Below are positions 52,217-64,000 of a stretch of 64,000 nucleotides of DNA, in pieces; the first letter of the stretch is position 1; every line of letters starts with the position of its first letter. The translations under genes and the position numbers were made by a program. The notes under the pieces were generated by a model. That model searched no databases. It worked only from the letters and a program-made list of their open reading frames with translations, and had not been told where the DNA came from. This stretch comes from Lichenihabitans psoromatis. GTDB taxonomy: Bacteria; Pseudomonadota; Alphaproteobacteria; Rhizobiales; Beijerinckiaceae. The stretch spans positions 4,403,501 to 4,467,500 of the forward strand of contig NZ_CP036515.1 in assembly GCF_004323635.1 (NCBI RefSeq), given 5' to 3'.

Positions 52217-53614
52217 TTAGAGCATCGCGACGGGAGATTGCGCGGTGCCGATGGCTTGAAGAGACGCTGCCACACGTAACACGTGATCTTCGCGCCATGG
52301 CGCACCGATAATCTGGACGCCGATCGGGAGCGTCTCGCCCTCGGTCCAGATGGGGACGGTCACGACCGGCAAGCCGATGAACGAGATGGGCTGCGTGTAA
52401 AGGCCGAGATTGGCTCTCACGCCCATCATCTGACCTCCCACCGTCATCATTGTTTGCCCCAAGCTCGGCGCCCGGCACGGTGTTGCTGGTGCCAAGAGGA
52501 TGTCGGTGGTCTGGAAGACGCATGCGAGCTGGTCGGCGAACCATCGTCGAAATCTCTGCGCTTCCATGATCCAAGCGGCCGGTAGCATCGCGCCCGCCAA
52601 AAGACGGTCGCGCGTCGCGGGGTCGAAATCGCCGGCGCGCGTTCTCAGCCGCTCGAGATGCAAGGCTCCCCCCTCGCTGGCACTGATCAGGTAAGCCGCA
52701 GCCCGCGCTCGATGTGCCTCGGGCAATTCAATTGTTCCCGTCACGTTCAAAGCGGCCGCACAGCGCGCGACGGCCGCGAAGGCTTCGGGTTCACCGCCTT
52801 GCGCGAAAAACCCACCCGCGACGGCGATCCGGAGGCGGTCGGCTCCCTTTGACAAGGCTCCACGCACCGGCTCGCTCGATCGTTCGGCGCAAACCGGGTC
52901 GTCGGGATCGGCGCCCTGCATGGCGTCATAGGCCAGTGCGAGATCCGCCGCCGAGCGAGCCAAGGGGCCGACGTGATCGAAGCTCGTCACGAACGGGAAC
53001 GTGCCAGCGCGTGAAAGACGCCCGTAGGTCGGCTTCAGTCCGAACAAGCCACAGAGCGACGCCGGAACGCGGATGGACCCGTTGGTGTCAGACCCGAGTG
53101 CCAACGGCACCAAGCCGCCCGCGACCGCGCTGGCCGACCCGCCCGACGAGCCGCCGGACATGCGCGACAGATCATGGGGGTTTCTGGAAGGTCCGTCGTG
53201 GATGTTCTCGCCAGTGAAGTCATAGGCATATTCGCCCATGTTGAGCGCGCCGACGCAGATCGCGCCGGCCTGTTCCAGTCGCCTGACCAAAGTGGCGTCC
53301 CGCGTCGCGGGCGCGTCGTCCCGGTTGATGAGCGAGCCGGCCCGCGTCACGAGACCCTCGAGATCGAACAGGTTTTTGACCGCGAACGGCACACCGGCCA
53401 ATGGTCCGAGTTCGCGTCCGTTGCGCCGCGCGTCATCGACGGCGCTAGCCCTCGCCAGGGCGCGATCAGCCATGACGGTTGTGAAAGCACCGACGTGTGG
53501 GTCGACTAACGCGATGCGGGCCAGAGAGGCTTCGACGATCTCGCGCGCCGACATTTCGCCACTCGCAACCGCGCGGGCCAACGTGGCGGCATCCTGCTCG
53601 AAGAAATGTCTCAC
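52217..53614 (-). CDS. AtzE-like amidase
   Basis: A 465-residue amidase-signature enzyme. Lys80 (PFAVKNLF), cis-Ser156 in GGSSGGS and the nucleophile Ser180 in GSDTNGSIRVPAS form the Ser-Ser-Lys triad. The spelling GSDTNGS and the AtzG-type partner suggest the AtzE (1-carboxybiuret hydrolase) branch. Its GTG start overlaps the upstream stop by GTGA. AtzE needs AtzG for activity. No AtzD or AtzF gene is in the window, so the substrate may differ from cyanuric-acid intermediates. Confidence 0.85.
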   Translation of the reverse strand: MRHFFEQDAATLARAVASGEMSAREIVEASLARIALVDPHVGAFTTVMADRALARASAVDDARRNGRELGPLAGVPFAVKNLFDLEGLVTRAGSLINRDDAPATRDATLVRRLEQAGAICVGALNMGEYAYDFTGENIHDGPSRNPHDLSRMSGGSSGGSASAVAGGLVPLALGSDTNGSIRVPASLCGLFGLKPTYGRLSRAGTFPFVTSFDHVGPLARSAADLALAYDAMQGADPDDPVCAERSSEPVRGALSKGADRLRIAVAGGFFAQGGEPEAFAAVARCAAALNVTGTIELPEAHRARAAAYLISASEGGALHLERLRTRAGDFDPATRDRLLAGAMLPAAWIMEAQRFRRWFADQLACVFQTTDILLAPATPCRAPSLGQTMMTVGGQMMGVRANLGLYTQPISFIGLPVVTVPIWTEGETLPIGVQIIGAPWREDHVLRVAASLQAIGTAQSPVAML

Positions 53615-53799
53615 GGTCGGAAGACCGGTGCGGGCTCGTCCCGATCGTCGAGCGGAGCATCCCGAAGCAGGACCGCGAAGCGGATCGCGATCCCGAGATT
53701 GGTGACGATGCCGGGCCGATATTCGGGCTCGATCTCGAGGTCGAGAAGCGCCGCCATGGCGTCGATCAACGTATCCAGCTCAGGGGTTTGCTGCGGCAT
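53611..53799 (-). CDS. AtzG-like protein (DUF4089)
   Basis: A 62-residue acidic helical protein (PELDTLIDAMAALLDLEIEP, VTNLGIAIRFAVLLRDAPL), similar to GatC-like AtzG, which wraps around and stabilises AtzE. An AGAGG site precedes its ATG. It overlaps the AtzE start. It is divergent from the AtzH/HpxZ-like gene. Confidence 0.8.
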   Translation of the reverse strand: MPQQTPELDTLIDAMAALLDLEIEPEYRPGIVTNLGIAIRFAVLLRDAPLDDRDEPAPVFRP

Positions 53800-53912
53800 T
53801 CAGACCTCTTCATTCGTCGGCGCTCTCGACGCCACGATCTTCAAGCCAAGCCAAGCGCGACGCAACCCGCGCGGCGATGTCTTTCGCGCGATCGGCGCGC
53901 TATAGCGACGCC

Positions 53913-54296
53913 ATGATGATCAATGATCCCGACACCATCGCCGAAGTCGAAGCCGCCTTTGCGGACTATGAGCGCGCCTTGACCGGCAACGATGTCGTGG
54001 TTCTCGATCGGCTGTTCTGGCAAGACGCGCGGACGATCCGCTATGGCGCGGGCGAGAACCTCTATGGTTTCCGCGAGATCGAGGCCTTTCGAGCGTCGCG
54101 CCCAGCCACCGGGCTCGACCGCACACTGGCGCGAACCACGATCACCAGCTTCGGCCGCGACGCAGCGACAGCCTGCACGCTTTTCACCCGGGCCAACGCA
54201 CCGGGCCGGGTCGGCCGCCAAACCCAAACCTGGGTCCGCATGCCGGATGGTTGGCGGATCGTGGCGGCTCATGTCAGCATCATACCGACACCCTAA
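53913..54296 (+). CDS. AtzH/HpxZ-like protein (DUF3225)
   Basis: A 127-residue NTF2-like fold protein. Residues 4-40 (DPDTIAEVEAAFADYERALTGNDV) and the later TWVRMPDGWRIVAAHVS match the AtzH/HpxZ family linked to cyanurate and oxalurate catabolism. AtzH is thought to hydrolyse or stabilise labile intermediates. The first of two adjacent ATGs (53913) is used; another ATG 36 bases upstream is less likely. It is divergent from atzG-like by about 110 bases. Confidence 0.78.
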   Translation: MMINDPDTIAEVEAAFADYERALTGNDVVVLDRLFWQDARTIRYGAGENLYGFREIEAFRASRPATGLDRTLARTTITSFGRDAATACTLFTRANAPGRVGRQTQTWVRMPDGWRIVAAHVSIIPTP

Positions 54297-54330
54297 GCCG
54301 CGATGCCGGCAAACCCCGGCCTTCCACGAC

Positions 54331-55104
54331 TCAGCGTTCGACGAAGGCCTTTTCGACCACGAACTGGCCGGGCTCGCCGTGATTACCCTCGATGAAGCCC
54401 TTGTCGAGCAGATGGGCCTTGATGTCCTGCAGCATATGCGGGCCACCGCAGATCATCACACGGTCATGCTCGGCTTCGAGCGGCGGCAATCCAAGATCGG
54501 AATAAAGCTGACCCGATTCCATCAAGGCCGTGATGCGGCCGTTGTGGCGGAACGGCTCCCGCGTCACGGTCGGGTAATAGACCAGCTTCTCGCGGATGAG
54601 CTCGCCGATGAGTTCATCATGGGGAAGGATCTCGGCAATATCATCGCGATAGGCCAATTCGGACACTTGTCGCGTGCCATGCACGAGAATGATCTTCTCG
54701 AAACGATCGTAGGTCTCCGGATCCTTGATGACGCTCAGGAACGGCGCAAGGCCTGTCCCGGTCGACAGAAGATAAAGATTGCGACCCGACATGAGATTGT
54801 CGATCACGAGCGTGCCGGTCGCTTTACGGCCGACGATCACCTGATCCCCGACTTTCAAATGCTGCAGCCGCGAGGTCAGCGGCCCTTCAGGCACCTTGAT
54901 CGACAGGAACTCGAGCTCGCTCTCGTAGTTGGCACTGGCGACGCTATAGGCCCGCAGCAGAGGCTTCCCATCCACCTTGATGCCGATCATCGTAAACTCG
55001 CCGTTCCGAAATCGAAACGAGGGATCCCGGGTGATTTTGAAGCTGAACAACCGGTCGGTCCAATGGCGGACGTCGACGACGGTTTCTTCGAAGAGGTTGC
55101 TCAC
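54331..55104 (-). CDS. fpr: Ferredoxin/flavodoxin-NADP reductase
   Basis: A 257-residue FAD enzyme that transfers electrons between NADPH and ferredoxin or flavodoxin. FAD-site RAYSVAS, NADP-site GTGLAPF, the CGGPHML motif and the C-terminal AFVER with its aromatic terminus are as in subclass I FPRs. The GTG at 55104 after GGAG gives the normal length; upstream codons are unrelated. Fpr often protects against oxidative stress. Here it lies between two catabolic modules, divergent from the enamidase gene. Confidence 0.93.
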   Translation of the reverse strand: MSNLFEETVVDVRHWTDRLFSFKITRDPSFRFRNGEFTMIGIKVDGKPLLRAYSVASANYESELEFLSIKVPEGPLTSRLQHLKVGDQVIVGRKATGTLVIDNLMSGRNLYLLSTGTGLAPFLSVIKDPETYDRFEKIILVHGTRQVSELAYRDDIAEILPHDELIGELIREKLVYYPTVTREPFRHNGRITALMESGQLYSDLGLPPLEAEHDRVMICGGPHMLQDIKAHLLDKGFIEGNHGEPGQFVVEKAFVER

Positions 55105-55373
55105 ATCATCTCCGTTCGAGGAGCGCCCGGTCGGTCTCGACAAAGGACGCCAGTGGGTCACTTGACTTGCGCGACGCCGTCAATGCCCCTTGTTGTGCAT
55201 TGCACTCAAAGCATCGTTACGGGTGGAACTCAAGTCACGGCTCCATTTACGCGCGCAATATTCATTGGTACACAAACAAATAAGCGCGGAGTGACATGTC
55301 GCAAGCGTGGCGGGGGCCGGTGCTTCCGAAGCCGCTGCCCTGACCAAGCCCTGCCTTCAGAAGGATCAGATCC

Positions 55374-56570
55374 ATGGCGCATGACGCAACCGCTCCTGGC
55401 CCCTCGGGGAAACTCGTAGTCCGCAACATCGGCCTTCTGCTCAGCGGCGATCTCACGCATCCCATTCTCGATGCCGACACGATCGTGGCGGTCGATGGCC
55501 GTATTACCGCGGTTGGCCACGCCAAGGATCTCGACTGCGACCAGGCCACCACCATCATCGACGCGCATGGCTGCGCCGTCTCGCCTGGGCTGATCGACAG
55601 CCACGTTCACCCCGTAGCCGGGGACTGGACCCCCCGCCAAAGCCAGCTGAACTGGATCGACTCGACCCTGCATGGCGGCGTGACGACGATGATCTCAGCC
55701 GGTGAGGTCCATACGCCGGGCCGCCCGAAGGACATCGTCGGCCTCAAGGCCATGGCGATCTTCGCGCAGCGCGCCTTCACCAACTTCCGGCCGGGCGGCA
55801 TGAAGATCCATGCCGGAGCGCCGGTGATCGAGCCCGGCATGGTCGAGCAGGATTTCAAGGATTTGGCCGACGCGGGCGTGCGGCTGCTCGGCGAAGTCGG
55901 GCTCGGCGGCGTGAAGGATGGCGCGACGGCGCGCCAGATGGTGGGCTGGGCGCGAAAATACGGGATTCAATCGACCATCCATACCGGCGGCCCATCCATT
56001 CCGGGATCGGGTCTGATCGATTCGGCGGTGGTGCTCGAGGCCGATACGGACGTGGTCGGTCACATCAATGGCGGCCATACCGCTCTGCCGGACCGCGAGA
56101 TCCGCTGCATTTGCGAGGGCTGCAAGCGCGGCCTCGAGATCGTGCATAACGGCAATGAGCGTGCGGCTCTCTACGCGATGCGGACCGCGCGGGAGATCGG
56201 TCAAATCGAGCGCGTGATCTTGGGGACGGATGGCCCCGCTGGATCGGGCGTTCAGCCGCTCGGCATTCTCCGGATGGTGTCGATGCTGTCGTCTCTGGGC
56301 GACGTCCCGGCCGAGGTGGCGTTCTGCTTTGCGACCGGCAATACAGCGCGGATGCGCTCGCTCGATTGCGGCATCATCGAAGTCGGCCGGGCCGCGGATT
56401 TCACCTTCATGGACCGGCCACAGCATGGCGCCGGATCGACGCTGCTGGAAGCCGTGCAACTCGGCGACCTGCCGGGAGTCGGTATGGTGGTAATCGATGG
56501 TCTGGTCCGCACCGGCCGCAGCCGCAACACGCCACCTGCCGTCAACATACCCGAGGTCGTTGCCCGGTAA
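55374..56570 (+). CDS. Enamidase-like amidohydrolase
   Basis: A 398-residue metal-dependent amidohydrolase. His77 and His79 (GLIDSHVHP), a bridging Glu in GEVGLGG, His in IHTGG, His in HINGGHT and Asp in GTDGPAGSG complete the binuclear site. The segments VTTMISAG, GRPKD and C-terminal SRNTPPA closely resemble the bacterial enamidase of nicotinate fermentation, which opens 6-oxo-tetrahydronicotinate with loss of ammonia. Related cyclic amides or enamides may be the true substrate here. It is divergent from fpr with a 270-base gap and convergent with marR. Confidence 0.85.
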   Translation: MAHDATAPGPSGKLVVRNIGLLLSGDLTHPILDADTIVAVDGRITAVGHAKDLDCDQATTIIDAHGCAVSPGLIDSHVHPVAGDWTPRQSQLNWIDSTLHGGVTTMISAGEVHTPGRPKDIVGLKAMAIFAQRAFTNFRPGGMKIHAGAPVIEPGMVEQDFKDLADAGVRLLGEVGLGGVKDGATARQMVGWARKYGIQSTIHTGGPSIPGSGLIDSAVVLEADTDVVGHINGGHTALPDREIRCICEGCKRGLEIVHNGNERAALYAMRTAREIGQIERVILGTDGPAGSGVQPLGILRMVSMLSSLGDVPAEVAFCFATGNTARMRSLDCGIIEVGRAADFTFMDRPQHGAGSTLLEAVQLGDLPGVGMVVIDGLVRTGRSRNTPPAVNIPEVVAR

Positions 56571-56588
56571 AGCGCTCCGGGCAGCGCT
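56571..56588. terminator. Short stem-loop between convergent genes
   Basis: AGCGCT repeats around CCGGGC just after the enamidase stop, so a 6-bp stem can form. No T-tract follows. Confidence 0.25.
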
Positions 56589-56610
56589 CGACGCCTCGTC
56601 TCGTCGGAGA

Positions 56611-57063
56611 CTACCGCAGGCGCGACAGCAGCGCCTTCAGCATGTCGCGCTCACGCTGCTCGAGAGGCGCCAACGTCTCTTCGGTGATACGATTAGCCTG
56701 CGGCATCAGCCGCTCGACCAGCGCGCGGCCGTCCTGAGTGAGCGTGACCAGCCGTCGCCGGCCATCGTCCGGGGCGGCCCGCGTATCGGTGAGACCACGC
56801 TTTGACAGGCGATCGACCACGCCCTTGATGGTCGCCGCATCCATGACGGTCAAACGCCCAAGCAGGTTTTGCGACAAGGGCCCGACTTCATACAGCTTGG
56901 AGAGAGCGGCCCATTGGGTCGACGTCACCTCGGCCTGAACGCCGGCCGCGAAGATGGCTGCGTGTCGCTGTGCGACCTGCCGGAGGATGAAACCGATCTG
57001 ATCATCGAGCAGGTAAGCCGCTGGCTTTTGCGTCACGAGGGTGGGACCGACACCATCGCTCAT
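56611..57063 (-). CDS. MarR-family regulator
   Basis: A 150-residue winged-helix regulator (helix-turn-helix LSQNLLGRLTVMDAATIKGVVDRL, then the wing DDGRRRLVTLTQDG). MarR proteins sense small phenolic or heterocyclic ligands; NicR, regulator of nicotinate catabolism in Pseudomonas, belongs to this family. The ATG at 57063 is chosen; 21 residues upstream are unlike the family. It lies at the end of the enamidase gene on the opposite strand and may control the surrounding genes. Confidence 0.88.
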   Translation of the reverse strand: MSDGVGPTLVTQKPAAYLLDDQIGFILRQVAQRHAAIFAAGVQAEVTSTQWAALSKLYEVGPLSQNLLGRLTVMDAATIKGVVDRLSKRGLTDTRAAPDDGRRRLVTLTQDGRALVERLMPQANRITEETLAPLEQRERDMLKALLSRLR

Positions 57064-57258
57064 CGCTTCACCATCCGCCGCGCGCCTCGTTTGTCCCAAA
57101 CCGATTGACCGGCTCCAGGCTACCACATCGAGAGGTCGGCGTTGGAGGTTTTCGGATGGCTTCGAACTCGTCGATCGTGCCGTCCGGCATGACCCCGCAA
57201 GCCCTGTCTGACCGTATCGCTCTGCGGGTCCGCAGCGCTTCGGACGTGGCGGCCGCCA

Positions 57259-58038
57259 TTAGCGGTCCGACATCGACCGCGCATCGTCGCGCGTCCGGGG
57301 CCAAGCGGCTGGTCCCCACAAGGCCGCGTGAGTGTCGACCCAGCGCCCGCGGATATGGCTATCCAAGATGGCGAGCACGATCGCCATCATCGAGACCGCG
57401 AGAAGAATGCAAAGCCAATCCGGTGAGCCGGCGAGATCGGCACCCAGGATGATTGTGATCTGTGCAAGAACGAGCAGGCCCCATCCTATGGTTTTGTGCC
57501 AAGTCTCGAACAACCGTCGGCGCAACGACATGTCGTAGTGGTCGCCACGCCATGTCGATGCAATAGCCGCTTCTGCGCCGCTGTCGGTCGGGCCACCCTT
57601 TGTCCCGCGCAACAAGGGGGACAGAACCTGAAGCCAAGCGAAAACCATGACCACGAGGCCGCAAACGCCGTGGACCGTTCCAACATGGCCACCAACGTCT
57701 CTGAGGATCACGAGAACCGCGACGGTTGCCAGCGTAGCGCCCACATATTGCAAAGCGCGGTGGCAATTCCACCAGAAGGGGTGATCGACCACGTCCGGGA
57801 AGGGTTGAGCCGGCATGACCTTGAAATAGCGAGCCACAAGACCGCCGAGCGGCAGGAGGCACCCCCACGACACGATCATCAACGCGGCATGGACAGCCAT
57901 GATCGGAGGCAAAACATCTGCACGCCACATGATGACAGCGGCCGACAAGGTCGCGACGATGTTGATGGCGACCAGCACGAGGCAGGGCGACACAGTCTTT
58001 TGACTTGAACTGAGCTGTGACCGCGTCGGCTGTTTCAT
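57259..58038 (-). CDS. Cytochrome b561-like membrane protein
   Basis: A 259-residue membrane protein with five or six hydrophobic helices. His residues at HAALMIVSWGCLLPLGGLVAR, NCHRALQYVG, HGVCGLVVMVFAWLQV and WHKTIGWGLLV are spaced as haem-b ligands of the b561/DOMON-reductase superfamily. It may pass electrons across the membrane. The ATG at 58038 follows GGGGAG. Its role in the nitrogen-heterocycle locus is unknown; it may accept electrons for a hydroxylase or quinone pool. Confidence 0.75.
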   Translation of the reverse strand: MKQPTRSQLSSSQKTVSPCLVLVAINIVATLSAAVIMWRADVLPPIMAVHAALMIVSWGCLLPLGGLVARYFKVMPAQPFPDVVDHPFWWNCHRALQYVGATLATVAVLVILRDVGGHVGTVHGVCGLVVMVFAWLQVLSPLLRGTKGGPTDSGAEAAIASTWRGDHYDMSLRRRLFETWHKTIGWGLLVLAQITIILGADLAGSPDWLCILLAVSMMAIVLAILDSHIRGRWVDTHAALWGPAAWPRTRDDARSMSDR

Positions 58039-58386
58039 TGAAGGCTCCCCTACCCCGCCCTTCGTTGGCTCGATCGCTGCGACCCGTTGAACCGCGCCAC
58101 GCTGGACGACCGGATCGACCACTGACGGTGTCGACGAGATCATTCTGCCCCGAGGTTATTGCCTCAAAGGATAGCTCGATCTCGCTTCGGAGCAACGATG
58201 AGCGGCAGGGTCAGGCGCGTGATTTCCGCGCGGCATGATCTCTCGGCGCGGCCGACCTCTCGAGGATGGCCGACAGGCTTGGCCGTCGTGCCTCAGGACC
58301 TCCGGATGGTCTCCGATCTCACCGTCGAGGAGGAACTCGCGGTCGGGCGGCGACAGTCACGCACCGGGGTGCCGGTTTGTCAGCGG
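58039..58386. other. Intergenic region holding a LivF-like fragment
   Basis: A 348-base gap between two minus-strand genes. Its main content is the plus-strand remnant at 58201-58365, listed separately. The rest (58039-58200) shows no ORF; it presumably holds the b561 promoter on the minus strand. Confidence 0.4.
58201..58365 (+). pseudogene. Remnant of a LivF-type ABC ATPase gene
   Basis: A plus-strand stretch translates to DLSARPTSRGWPTGLAVVPQ followed by DLRMVSDLTVEEELAVG. This is the mid-portion of branched-chain amino-acid or amide transporter ATPases (LivF/UrtE), where the usual text is close to a DLSxxP / GLxxVPE / LTVEENL pattern. Walker A, signature and Walker B regions are missing on both sides and the reading frame is interrupted by unrelated sequence. 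It marks loss of an ABC importer from the locus. Confidence 0.6.
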
Positions 58387-59625
58387 TCAAGCGAATGTCC
58401 GACGTCGGTCGTCGGCACGGTCCGTGCGCGGCAACGGCACGTCGCGATACAGTGTCGTCAGCTGCCGGAGAAACGGCGCTTCAGTCTTCCAGCGCGTTCC
58501 CTCGACCGGGTCGGCACCCGCCAGCATCGTGTCCGTGGCTGCGCGCGAGAGATCAACGACGAAGCGGATGCGCTCGGCCCGCCGCTCTTCGACCCGCGCG
58601 GGCACATCGGCCAAGCCACCCTTCCGCGCGAGCGCCAGCCTGATCTCATCCACCGCCACGCAGGCATCCTCGCAGGCCTGGGTCGCGCCCTGGCCGAGGG
58701 TCGGCACCATCGGGTGCGCGGCGTCGCCCGTCAGCAGGATGCCGGCTTTCCTGCCGTAGGTCACGCTGCCTTCCTGAAGGCGAGCCCAATGAAGACGATC
58801 CGCGTGGCGGGTTATCGCCTCGATCAGATATCCAGCCTCCCGCGACGGCGGCCCATCGGGCGGCATGTAAGCCGCGCTTAAGAAGTCGGGCTGCTTCATC
58901 GCCTCGGGGATCGCCCCTTCGGCCGGTATCGGGAAGGACCCGGCGCAATAGATGAAATCGCCCGGGACGCGGAAAGCCAGTAGACGATTCGGGCCGTTGA
59001 ACCACTGGCCATAGTCGTCGATCGGACAATCGGGGCCAGCCGGAAACAACACGCGGTAGAGGCAGACATTGAGAAACGCCGGCGTGTCGGGGCCACCCAG
59101 CACAAACTGCCGGATCGCCGAATAGCGACCGTCGCCCGCGATCAGCAAGTCGATATCGTCGATGCGTCCCTCGGCTCCCGTTTCGCGGCTGCGCCAAGTC
59201 ACGAACGTCGTCAGGCCGGGGCCGCCCTGACCGCATCCCGTCAACTCGGTGTTATAGGCGATCTGGCCGTCGAGCGGGCTGCGGAGCAGCGCGTAAAGCT
59301 CGGCCCAACGGATGCGGACGCCGGCATTATCGGCCACATCCATGAGCCGCAAATCCATCAACGGCCGGCCCGATGTTAGCGCGATCGTCCACTTGGACCA
59401 TGGTAAACTGTTGCCCACGATCGCCTCGGCTTCGCGCGGCAGGTGGAGGCGCAGACATTTGATCGCATTTGGGCCGATGTTGAGGCCGGTGCCTGCTTCG
59501 CCCTGCTCATGCTCGCCGACCCGCTCAAGACAGATGACCTCGCAATCCGTTCGGTTGCGAAGACCGGATGCGATCAGGCTTCCGGCGATGCCGGCCCCCG
59601 CGATGACGATGCGCGGCTTCTTCAT
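58387..59625 (-). CDS. FAD-dependent aromatic-ring hydroxylase
   Basis: A 412-residue class A flavoprotein monooxygenase. The FAD-site IVIAGAGIAGSLIASGL at residues 6-22, the DG-type LLIAGDGRYSAIRQ motif and the second FAD motif GDAAHPMVPTLGQGATQACEDA are intact. Such enzymes use NAD(P)H and O2 to hydroxylate aromatic acids; relatives include 6-hydroxynicotinate 3-monooxygenase and pyridine-ring oxygenases of vitamin B6 breakdown. The ATG at 59625 begins the family N-terminus. It is divergent from the ECF transporter. Confidence 0.9.
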   Translation of the reverse strand: MKKPRIVIAGAGIAGSLIASGLRNRTDCEVICLERVGEHEQGEAGTGLNIGPNAIKCLRLHLPREAEAIVGNSLPWSKWTIALTSGRPLMDLRLMDVADNAGVRIRWAELYALLRSPLDGQIAYNTELTGCGQGGPGLTTFVTWRSRETGAEGRIDDIDLLIAGDGRYSAIRQFVLGGPDTPAFLNVCLYRVLFPAGPDCPIDDYGQWFNGPNRLLAFRVPGDFIYCAGSFPIPAEGAIPEAMKQPDFLSAAYMPPDGPPSREAGYLIEAITRHADRLHWARLQEGSVTYGRKAGILLTGDAAHPMVPTLGQGATQACEDACVAVDEIRLALARKGGLADVPARVEERRAERIRFVVDLSRAATDTMLAGADPVEGTRWKTEAPFLRQLTTLYRDVPLPRTDRADDRRRTFA

Positions 59626-60071
59626 GACGATCGACACATGCGGTTCCAGATGGGTGAGGCTCAAACCTCGGGTTCGGATTGCACACGATCATGGGACACC
59701 GCGCTGGACAAGGGCCAGCAACCGACCGAACCGGCCGGCCTCAAGTCGTTGCATAAGTTTTCATCGCTCCGATCCGCGCCTCACGAGTATTCGTCACGTC
59801 TTTACAGAAGAGACTTGCGCGTTTTGCCGACGAGGCCGATCCATCAATGCTTCACACAGGCGCATTTGAACAAAAGACGCACTGAGGTGAGTAAATTTCA
59901 GGCTTGATGACGATAACCCGATCGCGCAACCTGCCATGAGATCGTCATGTTTCCCAATGTCGGAGCTCTTTGTGCAGAACAAAAGGGCCCTCCTCGATCT
60001 CGTGCCCGATCCCCGTGCCGCCATTGTCCTTCCGAACGTCGACGAATGCTTTCACACAACGGAGTTATGTC
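59626..60071. other. Intergenic region upstream of the ECF transporter
   Basis: About 450 bases between the divergent monooxygenase and ykoE-like gene. I searched for the thiamin-pyrophosphate riboswitch motifs (CTGAGA and the ACCTGATC..GATAAT block) and did not see them. No convincing ORF is present. The ykoE-like gene has a GGAG site 9 bases upstream of its ATG. Confidence 0.45.
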
Positions 60072-60767
60072 ATGAGCATCGGATCTATCTACCTGCTCGT
60101 CGTGCTAATCGGCGTCGCCTTGGCGGCCATCGCCTATTTCAGCAATCGCGGCACGGGCAAATTCTTCGTCAGTTTTACGCTGATCGAAATCGTGATCATG
60201 GCGGTTATCGGTGTCATCAACGGCGTACTTGGCACGCCGAATGCGATGTTGGGTCGGCTCTTCATGACCTTCTCCGGAGCTTACGGGTTCCTCGCTTTTG
60301 CGGCGATTTGCGGTGGCTTCTACATCTCGGGACCGCTCTGCGGCTACATCATCAGAAAGCCAGGGGCCGCGACGCTCGCCGAAACCATGAACGGCGTCGC
60401 ACAGGTGCTGTCGGGCAACCCCAATGGCATCATGGTGTTGGCCGCAGGCTTCCTCCAGGGCTTCATGTCGGACCTCGGCTTCGCTTTCTACGGCTATCGC
60501 CGCTGGACGCTTTCTGTGCTGGCCCTGTCCGGCGCGCTTGCACCCCTTCTGCAGCAAATCCCGGAGGTCTATTTCTTCGGCGTCGGCGATATGGGCATTA
60601 GCTACAACCTTCTGGCGCTGATCATCCGCATGGGGAGTGGCGCGCTCTACGCGATCATTTTGGTGAAGCCCATCGCCATCGCGCTCCTGAAAGCCGGCGT
60701 CTTACGCGGCACCCAACTCGCAGCCGACGAGCGGCCGCTCGCGACGACCCAGCAGAAGCTCGCCTGA
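60072..60767 (+). CDS. ykoE: ECF transporter substrate-binding membrane protein, YkoE-like
   Basis: A 231-residue membrane protein with about six hydrophobic segments. The block EIVIMAVIGVINGVLGTPNAML and the later NGVAQVLSGNPNGIMVLAAG characterise YkoE-type S components of energy-coupling-factor importers, which bind hydroxymethylpyrimidine or thiamine in characterised cases. Ten bases separate it from the ATPase gene. With no thiamine riboswitch and a catabolic neighbourhood, a related N-heterocycle is possible. Confidence 0.82.
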   Translation: MSIGSIYLLVVLIGVALAAIAYFSNRGTGKFFVSFTLIEIVIMAVIGVINGVLGTPNAMLGRLFMTFSGAYGFLAFAAICGGFYISGPLCGYIIRKPGAATLAETMNGVAQVLSGNPNGIMVLAAGFLQGFMSDLGFAFYGYRRWTLSVLALSGALAPLLQQIPEVYFFGVGDMGISYNLLALIIRMGSGALYAIILVKPIAIALLKAGVLRGTQLAADERPLATTQQKLA

Positions 60768-60777
60768 GCCTCGCCCG

Positions 60778-62592
60778 ATGACCCTCGCAGCCGTCGCTGA
60801 TCCGGCCAGCACCTTGCAATCGACGTCGGCTGTCGCGGTCGACCTTCGCTCCATCTCGTATATTTACGAAGGTGAGACAGAAGCCGTCCTCAACGACGTG
60901 ACGCTGGAGGTTCGGGACGGCGAGTTCCTGCTGATTCTGGGTCCTAGCGGCTGCGGCAAAAGTACGTTGCTGCAGCTGCTCAACGGCACGATCCCCCATA
61001 CCCTGAAGGGAACGTTGACCGGGGAGGCCACGGTTTGCGGCAAACCACTCGCGTCGACGAAGGTCGCATCCTTCGCGACCGATGTTGGCATGGTGTTCCA
61101 GGATCCCGACTCGCAGATCATCTGCACACGGGTGCGCGACGAAGTCTGCTTCGGCCTCGAAAACCTGTGCCGGCCGGCGGCCGAGATCATGCAGTGCCAA
61201 GCCGACGCTCTGCATGTCGTCGGCCTCAACGGCTTCGGCGATCGCTCGGTCTTCGACCTGTCCGGCGGTCAGAAGCAGCGCGTCAGCATCGCGGCGGTGC
61301 TTGCGGTGCGGCCGCGACTTCTCGTTCTCGACGAGCCGACCGCGAACCTCGACCCAGCCGGAATGGCCGACGTCTTCGGTTTGCTCCACGATCTCTCCAA
61401 GGCCGGCACCACCATCGTGATGGTGGAGCACCGCGTCGACGAATTGGCCGATCGCGTCTCACGCGTCGTCATGATGGATCGTGGCCGCGTGACGTTCGAC
61501 GGCTCTCCGCGAGCGGCGTTTTCACGTCCACGCGCGGCCCTCTTCGAAGAGGGACAGGCCGTTCCGGTGAGCGCCTGGTTTCCACAAGCCTCGGAATTCG
61601 CCCTCGCGTTGAGCGCCGCCTGCGCGGTTCCTCTCTCGCCGGACGACATGCCGCTCGACGTCGCCGAGGCCGTCGCGCTGGGCAGCCGATTTGTCGGCAG
61701 CGCGCCGGTGAGACCGCCTGAACCCTCAGCCGGAAGCGGGAAGCCGGGCGACAAGCCGCTGCTCAGCGTCCGACATCTGTCGTTCGGCTACGACCGGGCC
61801 GCGCCCATCCTCGACGACGTGTCGCTCGATCTTGGACGCGGCCATCTCGTGGCGCTGTGCGGCCGCAACGGCTCAGGCAAAACCACGCTGGCGCGGCTCA
61901 TCATGGGCATCAACGACGCGCCAAAACAGTCGATCCTGCTCAACGGCAAAGACATCAGCGCGCTTGGCCCGAAAGAGATCTCGGCCGAGGTCGGCTATGT
62001 TTTTCAGAACCCCGACCACCAATTCGTGACCGACCGCGTCTGGGACGAGATCGCCTACGGCCTCACGGTGCGCGGCATGTCGGATGTGGCGATTCGCGAG
62101 CGTGTCGACGAGGTGCTCGGCATTGTCGACCTCGCCCGCTATGCCGAGCGCTCGCCCTTCAGTCTCAGTCTTGGCGAACGTCGGCGGCTCAGTGTCGCCA
62201 CCATGCTGGTGCTCGAGCCTCACCTGCTGATTCTCGACGAACCCACCATCGGCCAAGATCACGAACGCGCGCAACTGCTCATGGGGTTGATGGTTCGGCT
62301 CCGCGAGCGCTACAACACGACCGTTCTCATGATCACGCATGACGTCCGGCTCGTCGCCGAATGGGCCGATCGTGCGCTCGTCCTCAGCGGGGGGCGCTTG
62401 CTCTTCGACGGCACCCCCGATGCCATGTTCGCCGATGACGCGCTGCTCCGTGCGGGCGGTTTGCTGACACCGCCCATCTTCGACATCAGCCGCAGGATCG
62501 CGGCCGCCCATCCGGACGGACCGGTACGCCCCACGCTGTCGGTGCCAGCGCTGGTCTCAGCCATTACATTGTCGAGACGGGTGATGGCATGA
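60778..62592 (+). CDS. ykoD: ECF transporter ATPase with two ABC domains (YkoD-like)
   Basis: A 604-residue protein with two ABC modules. The first has Walker A GPSGCGKST, signature LSGGQKQRVS and Walker B LLVLDEPTANLD. The second has Walker A GRNGSGKTT, signature LSLGERRRLS (variant of LSGGE) and Walker B LLILDEPTIGQD. Both chains look ATP-competent. It drives the EcfT/S complex, overlaps the EcfT start by ATGA and forms the importer operon with its neighbours. Confidence 0.92.
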   Translation: MTLAAVADPASTLQSTSAVAVDLRSISYIYEGETEAVLNDVTLEVRDGEFLLILGPSGCGKSTLLQLLNGTIPHTLKGTLTGEATVCGKPLASTKVASFATDVGMVFQDPDSQIICTRVRDEVCFGLENLCRPAAEIMQCQADALHVVGLNGFGDRSVFDLSGGQKQRVSIAAVLAVRPRLLVLDEPTANLDPAGMADVFGLLHDLSKAGTTIVMVEHRVDELADRVSRVVMMDRGRVTFDGSPRAAFSRPRAALFEEGQAVPVSAWFPQASEFALALSAACAVPLSPDDMPLDVAEAVALGSRFVGSAPVRPPEPSAGSGKPGDKPLLSVRHLSFGYDRAAPILDDVSLDLGRGHLVALCGRNGSGKTTLARLIMGINDAPKQSILLNGKDISALGPKEISAEVGYVFQNPDHQFVTDRVWDEIAYGLTVRGMSDVAIRERVDEVLGIVDLARYAERSPFSLSLGERRRLSVATMLVLEPHLLILDEPTIGQDHERAQLLMGLMVRLRERYNTTVLMITHDVRLVAEWADRALVLSGGRLLFDGTPDAMFADDALLRAGGLLTPPIFDISRRIAAAHPDGPVRPTLSVPALVSAITLSRRVMA

Positions 62593-63401
62593 TGCGCTCG
62601 GGCGTCTTCCAATTCAGGTCTGGAACATCGTTTTTTCACCGGCTCGATCCGCTGACGAAACTGGCCTGGCTCGTCGGCATCTCGCTGCTGGCCTTCGGTG
62701 CCTATATCGCCTGGGTCCAGATTGTCATCACGGCGGTGGTGCTCTTCACGGCGCTGGTGCTGGCGCGGTTATCACCGGTCGAGATCTGGCGCGGCACATG
62801 GCTCTTCGTCTTTGCCTGTTCGAGTTTTCTGGTCATCCAGACGCTCACGCTGCCGGGAACCCACGTCGCGTTCAGGATCGCCGGGCATCCCATCTATGCC
62901 GAAAGCTTCGATTACGCGCTCGCATCCGCGCTGCGGATCTACACCATCATCCTGTCGTCGCTCGTCTTCGTACGAACCACCGACCCGCGCGAACTGGCCA
63001 TCGCGCTCGTGACGCAGATGAAGGTGCCCTATCGGATCGCCTACGCGTTTTTCATCGCGCTCCGGATCATCCCCACGCTCGAGGACGAGATCAAAACCAT
63101 CCGGGCCGCACAATCGGTGCGCGGCGTCGCACGACAGGGTGGGATCGCGGGCCGCATCCGCGAGATGAAGCGCTACGCGATGCCGCTGCTGGTCGGCAGC
63201 CTGCGCAAAGCCTCGATGATGGTTATGTCGATGGAGGCGCGCGCCTTCGGCGCCTTTCCGCAGCGGACCTTCGTGGACGCGCCCCAGATGACCTGGGCCG
63301 GCATGACGGTCTGCGCCATCATGCTGATCGCCGTGCTGGGTTGGTATCTGGCCTTGGGCCTTGGTTACGTTCACACGATGTATGTGCTCGCACCGGCCTA
63401 G
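62589..63401 (+). CDS. ykoC: ECF transporter transmembrane coupling protein (EcfT, YkoC-like)
   Basis: A 270-residue membrane protein. The coupling helices carry RIIPTLEDEIKTIRAAQSVRG and a second SMEARAFGAF, the EcfT X-R-X-type motifs that touch the ATPase. Five or six membrane segments are visible. Its start overlaps the ATPase stop; its stop overlaps the opposite-strand amidase stop tail to tail. It ends the importer operon. Confidence 0.92.
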   Translation: MMRSGVFQFRSGTSFFHRLDPLTKLAWLVGISLLAFGAYIAWVQIVITAVVLFTALVLARLSPVEIWRGTWLFVFACSSFLVIQTLTLPGTHVAFRIAGHPIYAESFDYALASALRIYTIILSSLVFVRTTDPRELAIALVTQMKVPYRIAYAFFIALRIIPTLEDEIKTIRAAQSVRGVARQGGIAGRIREMKRYAMPLLVGSLRKASMMVMSMEARAFGAFPQRTFVDAPQMTWAGMTVCAIMLIAVLGWYLALGLGYVHTMYVLAPA

Positions 63402-64000
63402 GATGTCGTGTCATCCAGCGATAAGGGGGGGAACGCCCAGGCGGGTGCGTGAGCGGCCTCGAATGAAGCGCCGAAGGACAGCAGGCCTGCGTCACTGCCG
63501 AAACGGCTCACGACCTGGCCGCCAATCGGCAAGCCGGATCTCGAAAAGCCCAGCGGCATCGCGAGTCCGGGGTTGCCCGCGAGATTGACCCAGCCGGTGT
63601 AGATAGCATGACCGCGCGGGCCGACCGGTTGTCCGTCGATCATCGGCGGGAAGGCGTCGGCCGCCGGCCAGGGCAGCGCCGCAGCACTCGGCGTCAGCAC
63701 GAGATCGTAGCGCGTGAACAGGTCGGCGCTCCGGCGACGGAGAGCCATGACGACCTCCATGGCGTCGACATAATCGGCAGCCGACAGCCTTTCACCCTCC
63801 TGCGCCATCGCCTGAATCGTCGGTCCGCCCTTCAGGCGCAGCCGCTGGCCTGCTGCCCGAAAAGCACGCGCGACGCCCGCTCGACCGATCACGCGCCAAG
63901 CCTCGTCGACGGCGAGGCGGTCGAAAAACACACCGCCTTGCTCGACGACATGCCCCATGCCGGTCAACGCTGCCGCGGCCGTATCGGTGGCGGCTTCGAT
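63398..64000 (-). CDS. Amidase-signature enzyme, C-terminal part (cut by window edge)
   Basis: About 200 C-terminal residues of an amidase run from the right edge to 63398. Segments IEAATDTAAAALTGMGHVVE, RYDLVLTPSAAALPWPAAD and NLAGNPGLAMPLGFSRSGLPIGGQV are the usual last third of amidase-signature proteins (substrate pocket and the L-P-x-G-x-Q strand). The Ser-Ser-Lys triad is N-terminal and not in the window. It would hydrolyse an amide; its stop shares bases with the convergent EcfT stop. Confidence 0.85.
   Translation of the reverse strand: MEAATDTAAAALTGMGHVVEQGGVFFDRLAVDEAWRVIGRAGVARAFRAAGQRLRLKGGPTIQAMAQEGERLSAADYVDAMEVVMALRRRSADLFTRYDLVLTPSAAALPWPAADAFPPMIDGQPVGPRGHAIYTGWVNLAGNPGLAMPLGFSRSGLPIGGQVVSRFGSDAGLLSFGASFEAAHAPAWAFPPLSLDDTTS

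Follow-up and report, generated by a model that had tools for sequence, protein, structure and literature searches.

The window analyzed here is a 64,000-nucleotide stretch of the Lichenihabitans psoromatis genome (assembly GCF_004323635.1; contig NZ_CP036515.1, positions 4,403,501 to 4,467,500, or G000:C1:4403501-4467500; host genome of 4.84 Mb on three contigs). From position 52217 onward it carries a dense gene block of coding-type codon composition that is probably a mosaic of three units: one end of a reductive nicotinate degradation cluster, an island of 19.6 kb that holds other catabolic genes, and an amidase unit made of AtzE-, AtzG-, and AtzH-like proteins (AtzEGH). An initial annotation of the window had named the individual genes at positions that family matches and codon composition bear out, and had combined them into one undescribed pathway for the uptake and degradation of an N-heterocycle or cyclic amide. 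That unification fails: the enamidase belongs to the described nicotinate cluster, the flavin adenine dinucleotide (FAD) monooxygenase (FMO), the YkoEDC-type importer, and an amidase belong to the separate island, and AtzEGH is a third unit. Judging from its gene families, the island most likely imports and opens an oxo-pyrimidine-type ring. This division separates a known vitamin B3 pathway from an uncharacterized ring-degradation module and thereby yields clean assay targets. The module offers two unassigned AtzD-family specificity groups, an S component whose pyrimidine pocket is rewired, and a large FMO family.

The nicotinate cluster and its conservation

By sequence comparison, three genes spanning 54331-57126 form the left end of a known reductive nicotinate cluster. 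These encode an Fpr-type flavin reductase (54331-55161, minus strand), an enamidase (55374-56570, plus strand) predicted to open the 1,4,5,6-tetrahydro-6-oxonicotinate ring, and a MarR regulator (56611-57126, minus strand; PF01047) that is the final cluster gene before the island. The enamidase matches PDB entry 2VUN, presumably the crystallized Eubacterium barkeri enzyme, with 368 bits and aligns to residues 13-392 of 398. Its HxH, Lys, His, and Asp motifs, which we take to have metal-site roles, are retained. It is therefore a genuine 2VUN-family enamidase, and the earlier proposal of N-heterocycle catabolism was sound to that extent. The flavin reductase is of the FNR type, and its best match (NF008178, 164 bits) stays below the family cut-off of 390.

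The ring reductase, molybdenum hydroxylase, and nicotinamidase of the cluster lie rightward at 83.5-90.1 kb (coordinates above 64000 are window positions extrapolated into sequence fetched rightward). The ring reductase and molybdenum dehydrogenase that had been expected beyond 64 kb are found at 83513-85009 and 85317-89392. The former, 6-hydroxynicotinate reductase (HNR), has no match in PDB, Pfam, or NCBIfam, but it matches at 99% a Lichenihabitans psoromatis protein so named and is 72-83% identical to the HNR of related loci. The latter comprises a 2Fe-2S subunit (NdhS, 85317-85793) and a MoCoBD-cytochrome c subunit (NdhL, 85796-89392), which together make up a molybdenum nicotinate hydroxylase whose substrate assignment is predicted. 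A nicotinamidase (PncA, 89475-90110; PDB 2WT9, 259 bits) sits at the cluster end. Between the island and HNR are a Liv-type importer (76736-81366) that includes the resident livF as an open frame (76736-77452), two tandem AA_synth proteins (81450-82621; PF06684), and a protein at about 82.6-83.5 kb that matched no Pfam family and that we take to be UPF0280-like.

With these genes, PncA would convert nicotinamide to nicotinate, NdhS/NdhL-cytochrome c would hydroxylate nicotinate to 6-hydroxynicotinate, and HNR would reduce this product to tetrahydro-6-oxonicotinate, from which the enamidase would release 2-formylglutarate and NH3. The Liv-type importer probably feeds this route. This half of the block has already been described. 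The available text of PMC3511419 reports the same cluster in Azorhizobium, Bradyrhizobium, Rhodopseudomonas, and strain SG-6C, where the reductase is 42% identical to the E. barkeri enzyme. The molybdenum hydroxylase, HNR, enamidase, and ATP-binding cassette (ABC) importer of the clusters presented there for Azorhizobium caulinodans, Bradyrhizobium, and SG-6C are shared with the window genome. Unlike those clusters, however, the window genome has 19.6 kb of other catabolic genes between MarR and LivF.

We surveyed the best 80 of 583 confirmed enamidase loci with 30 cluster proteins, accepting matches to nicotinate genes at 50% identity or more with no coverage limit. The resulting counts are lower bounds, since contig ends or the 10 kb flank cut many of the loci short. 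Fpr was matched in 66 of the 80 loci, MarR in 64, LivF in 63, AA_synth in 57, LivK and the UPF0280-like protein in 54 each, HNR in 52, NdhS in 39, and NdhL in 30. Thus, Fpr, MarR, UPF0280-like, and AA_synth proteins accompany the cluster in many relatives, as they do here. Apart from the extra block, gene order and strands match those of most Bradyrhizobium and Afipia loci and of Beijerinckia L011, whereas the order differs in Bosea, Xanthobacter, Rhodoplanes, and a congener. Because some Bradyrhizobium loci carry up to about 8 kb of extra genes between enamidase and MarR (L086:11345-19481), that neighboring boundary seems to take insertions repeatedly.

The island and its junctions

Of the 62 loci that have both MarR and LivF, 61 place the two genes no more than 160 bp apart. 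The exception, L028, has a gap of 2488 bp, with LivF lying across the enamidase from MarR. In the window genome the gap between the two genes measures 19,609 bp. Two remnants of livF occur at its left side. Scar 1 (57124-57194, minus strand) is a decayed livF 3′ end that abuts MarR and marks the left insertion junction; it is 79% identical to the resident livF over 72 bp, and its score was reached by none of 1000 mononucleotide shuffles. Scar 2 (58214-58379, plus strand) is inverted relative to the resident gene and is 81% identical to it over 167 bp (E 8e-41). No exact word of 10 or more bases is common to both island ends in either orientation. We infer, as the simplest reading, that entry of the block disrupted an additional copy of livF located next to MarR. 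These scars hint at how one catabolic island became spliced into another.

Between the scars lies a gene for a b561-like membrane protein (57259-58143, minus strand). Its b561 label is weak (PF03188 E 0.038, below cut-off); four helix histidines were noted by eye alone. To its right the island carries FMO (58387-59664, minus strand; FAD_binding_3; start probably the Met at 59625) and genes for an energy-coupling factor (ECF) importer composed of a YkoE-type S component (60072-60767; PF09819, 98 bits), a YkoD-type double ATPase (60778-62592; TIGR04520, 406 bits), and a YkoC-type T component (62589-63401), all on the plus strand. An amidase-family gene (63398-64816, minus strand) extends past the window end. 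Next upstream of it is an AtzD/TrzD-family ring-opening amidohydrolase (64836-65918, minus strand; PF09663, 507 bits), and the island further holds two TRZ/ATZ-type hydrolases and a NitT importer. The importer had been called complete, and so it appears: YkoE and YkoD are recognized by family, and YkoC by homologues of 72-88% identity in four other genomes (G050, G278, G310, and G398) that share the gene order.

Distribution of the island genes

The earlier proposal was open to a test by gene neighborhood, and relatives do separate these genes. When presence is defined as at least 45% identity over half the protein length, 19 of the 20 island and Atz proteins occur in none of the 80 related enamidase loci, and the remaining one, the common ATPase type SsuB, occurs in a single locus. 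Among six genomes of the genus, the window genome included, three have the enamidase. These same three are the only ones with FMO (E <= 1e-60) among 199 genomes of the family sample, which also includes the window genome. Both congeners that have the island (G400 and G398) carry it on a contig other than that of the enamidase. Contig C52 of G400 carries MarR, enamidase, NdhL, NdhS, HNR, UPF0280, two AA_synth genes (so that the tandem pair is retained), and LivK-HM-G-F as one island-free run. Among the genomes examined, the island lies inside a nicotinate cluster in the window genome alone, and judging by this sample, the adjacency of enamidase and island is an accident of insertion in this lineage.

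The island itself recurs. On contig C59 of G400, read in window order (reverse complement), there are ahd3, GntR, SsuA/C/B, CN-hydrolase, amidase3, a TRZ/ATZ hydrolase, the AtzD-family gene, the amidase, and FMO, all 45-84% identical to the island genes of the window genome. BMP-type importer genes and an aminotransferase, both labeled by eye, are interspersed, and YkoEDC and the racemase of the window genome's island were not found in this copy. In G398, FMO, YkoEDC, the amidase, and the AtzD-family gene stand in window order, with a second AtzD-family gene alongside. Within 13 kb of FMO, this congener also has a cytosine deaminase (NF005748, 780 bits against a cut-off of 438), a nucleoside hydrolase (PF01156), and a Bmp binding protein.

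Seven of the 396 other genomes sampled from the order have an FMO ortholog (at least 46% identity), after which identity drops to 30-31%. Together with the two congeners, these give nine other FMO loci, compared over stretches of 26-57 kb. An AtzD-family gene is directly upstream of FMO in all seven genomes outside the genus, and YkoEDC precedes that gene in three of them. No enamidase or reductase ortholog occurs in the nine stretches. Orthologs of the window genome's AtzD-family protein were likewise accompanied by an amidase homologue (45-58% identity) within 8 kb at eight of eight loci outside the genus. At five of these loci, inspected by eye, Bmp-like binding protein and ABC genes are present in G065 and G236, an ABC ATPase and permease genes in G085 and G087, and none on the short G310 contig. 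Comparison of sequences shows the gene families, the conservation of the nicotinate cluster, the extra block with its scars, and the joint travel of FMO, ring opener, and amidase.

Genes for BtpA/SgcQ, SIS-domain, and PfkB proteins lie near the G398 island (L172:13757-16670), and inspection by eye of the FMO surroundings in other genomes showed similar SIS, PfkB, SDR, and epimerase genes. These neighbors suggest a sugar-linked substrate.

The predicted ring-degradation module

The AtzD-family gene begins 836 bp past the window end and was therefore invisible to the initial annotation. Its product is a member of the AtzD/barbiturase superfamily in which all six residues of the three Ser-Lys dyads (K42, S85, K162, S233, K296, and S344) are present. 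At the five specificity sites (195, 321, 325, 345, and 346), it has R, E, R, G, and G. This set agrees at four of five sites with the signature of cyanuric acid hydrolase (R195, T321, R325, G345, G346) and at none with that of barbiturase (N195, H321, K325, V345, S/A346). In a tree that leaves out the congeners, the protein groups with eight orthologs at 70-73% identity (support 100/100), and all nine members of this clade have Glu at position 321. The FMO-linked genes outside the genus are of a Q321 type. The 'Toblerone' AtzD/barbiturase enzymes covered in the available text of PMC3758960 share PF09663, the three Ser-Lys dyads, and Arg54 with our protein. However, its R,E,R,G,G set matches none of the signatures quoted there for groups I-III, IV, V, and VI, and its metal loop is altered.

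For the FMO model, the top Foldseek hit is the urate hydroxylase HpxO, which is the nearest solved fold (3rp6, 3rp7, and 3rp8), and the HpxO-type fold is thus recognizable at about 20% sequence identity. Foldseek and VIA-align speak to the fold of FMO alone, and the absence of a family from their lists carries no evidential weight. The equivalent of HpxO Arg204, which together with Asp293 we presume to matter in that enzyme, is R227, invariant in 35 of 35 sequences. At E <= 1e-80, the FMO family has no fewer than 1329 members in the database. Among plasmid records, 17 matched FMO and none covered 80% of the query. One entry, P0191, is a 704-residue protein with PfkB and FAD_binding_3 domains that is 71% identical to FMO; either the two domains are fused or the gene was miscalled.

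YkoE is homologous to the Bacillus subtilis thiamine S component (PDB 5edl, E 4e-20), and the three-gene architecture and S-component family of the island importer are those of the YkoEDC thiamine ECF importer as presented in the available text of PMC5037267. In contrast to the YkoE described there, the pocket of the island protein carries W49F, Y46C, E77Q, and D131E. Of the thiamine contacts Trp49, Tyr46, Glu77, Gln95, and Asp131, it keeps Gln95 alone and so lacks the residue set of a thiamine S component. The changes are identical in all three aligned orthologs.

We propose a scheme for how these proteins act together, in which the substrates, transport direction, and sequence of steps are inferred. 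YkoEDC probably imports an oxo-pyrimidine-type ring, amino forms of which may be deaminated by the TRZ/ATZ-type hydrolases. The HpxO-like monooxygenase would hydroxylate the ring, the AtzD-family Ser-Lys amidohydrolase would open the hydroxylated product, and the amidase would cut the ureido acid, freeing urea for the urease that is present in the genome. The predicted set of uptake, ring hydroxylation, ring opening, and amide hydrolysis had been proposed before and does exist, but the opener of the island is the AtzD-family protein rather than the enamidase. The oxidative pyrimidine pathway proceeds through uracil dehydrogenase, barbiturase, and ureidomalonase. As in that pathway, a ring-opening amidohydrolase adjoins an amidase; in contrast to it, the linked oxidase is an HpxO-like flavin monooxygenase and the importer is of the ECF type.

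We tentatively put forward that the island is an aerobic oxo-pyrimidine-type route not yet described. In such a route, an ECF vitamin-type importer would have been repurposed for a nitrogen source, an HpxO-like oxidase would replace the molybdenum dehydrogenase, and two new AtzD-family specificity groups (E321 and Q321) would act before a ureido-acid amidase. A literature search, outside of which most subscription journals fell, found no paper on a monooxygenase/AtzD-family/YkoEDC operon. Of the block once taken as one undescribed pathway, the nicotinate half is known, and the island is a new variation on pathways built around ring-opening amidohydrolases, with a probable oxo-pyrimidine-type substrate.

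The AtzEGH unit

At the left edge, outside the nicotinate cluster, are an AtzE-family amidase of the HpxY/AtzE type (52217-53614, minus strand; NF006631, 731 bits), an AtzG-like small subunit that overlaps the AtzE start (53611-53799, minus strand; PF13318, 62 bits), and an AtzH/HpxZ-like NTF2-fold protein (53877-54296, plus strand; NF033625, 193 bits). We treat them as an unrelated unit. AtzE is absent from all 80 related enamidase loci by the criterion given above, and the fetched congener stretches hold no AtzG, no AtzH, and no AtzE above the general amidase level (38%). A separate sample of the order has AtzE (E <= 1e-110) in 62 of its 248 other genomes. The window copy is 11 kb from the AtzD-family gene, with nicotinate genes in between. 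The available text of PMC6219798 reports that atzG-atzE-atzH clusters occur in many settings from which AtzD and AtzF are absent. The AtzH-like protein scores 138 bits against the AtzH crystal structure 6bjt, and Tyr and Arg are conserved at the apparent Tyr22 and Arg46 sites in the alignment.

Weighing the explanations

A single integrated pathway would lead from import of a pyridine acid by YkoEDC through hydroxylation by the FAD enzyme and ring opening by the enamidase to release of ammonia by the amidases. It is very improbable and was rejected on the congener neighborhoods and the 80-locus survey: island and enamidase are on separate contigs in both congeners, nearly all of the island and Atz proteins are missing from related enamidase loci, and the nine other FMO stretches lack enamidase and reductase orthologs. 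Moreover, the first nicotinate steps are complete without island genes. A cyanuric acid or s-triazine route has more to recommend it and is still unlikely. Here, the TRZ/ATZ hydrolases would make cyanuric acid, the AtzD-family protein would open it, and AtzEG with AtzH would process carboxybiuret. In its favor, three cyanuric acid hydrolases match the AtzD-family protein at 51-54% identity, four of five specificity residues agree, 10 of the 65 AtzE places listed have an AtzD-family gene no farther than 8 kb away, and the window holds AtzE, AtzG, and AtzH. However, Thr321 is replaced by Glu in all nine clade members, the metal loop is altered, and the fetched congener stretches lack the Atz partners. 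The genome also has no allophanate hydrolase (AtzF) above cut-off (best TIGR02713 score 195.8 against 511), and so the genes do not amount to an AtzDGEHF cyanurate operon. The monooxygenase and ECF importer would be left without a role. Neither the AtzD-family signature nor the AtzF search thus supports a complete cyanurate pathway. Also very improbable is plain uptake of thiamine or hydroxymethylpyrimidine by YkoEDC beside unrelated catabolic genes. YkoE is homologous to a thiamine S component, but four of five thiamine contacts are lost, and YkoEDC travels with FMO and an AtzD-family gene in four other genomes. Neither the window nor the 39.8 kb spanning 51.5-91.3 kb has an Rfam family that reaches threshold, and therefore no thiamine pyrophosphate riboswitch was found. 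Pocket residues and riboswitch search alike leave the thiamine reading unsupported.

Several observations also weigh against the explanation we favor, namely an inserted island that handles an oxo-pyrimidine-type ring. All island substrates are predicted from sequence, and the AtzD-family signature is nearer to that of cyanuric acid hydrolase than to that of barbiturase. The HpxO Asp293 equivalent in FMO is Thr (T322) in 35 of 35 sequences, so that the Arg204 and Asp293 pair is incomplete and FMO is not a canonical urate hydroxylase. On a uracil-type ring, a flavin hydroperoxide would be likely to attack at C5, which by itself would give no trioxo ring of the kind opened by known AtzD-family enzymes. 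The island is itself a mosaic, with YkoEDC near FMO in just four of the nine other FMO loci and the racemase and b561-like genes in none. In G398 the island amidase is in pieces. With regard to the insertion, the G400 nicotinate cluster is rearranged, with MarR and LivF at opposite ends, and it is therefore the 62 other loci that carry the case for their adjacency. The fetched stretches of G400 and G398 yielded no Fpr. Finally, no other nicotinate gene is within 20 kb of the G398 enamidase (G398:C92:282593; 89% identical to that of the window), a lone occurrence that counts against a universal link.

Additional island genes

An Asp/Glu/hydantoin racemase-family gene (66159-66941; PF01177) is followed by a TRZ/ATZ hydrolase (66913-68442) and a third amidase (68644-69840; L008:17145-18341). 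The relatives' stretches examined hold no racemase match, and the loci examined hold no relative of the b561-like gene. In the third amidase, the C-terminal part from about residue 300 lies in a different frame, which reflects either a pseudogene or a sequencing error. Relatives of the TRZ/ATZ hydrolase at 40-47% identity occur in 5 of 396 other genomes (E <= 1e-90), with an SsuB-type gene near all six places and an NdhS-type 2Fe-2S gene near five of them.

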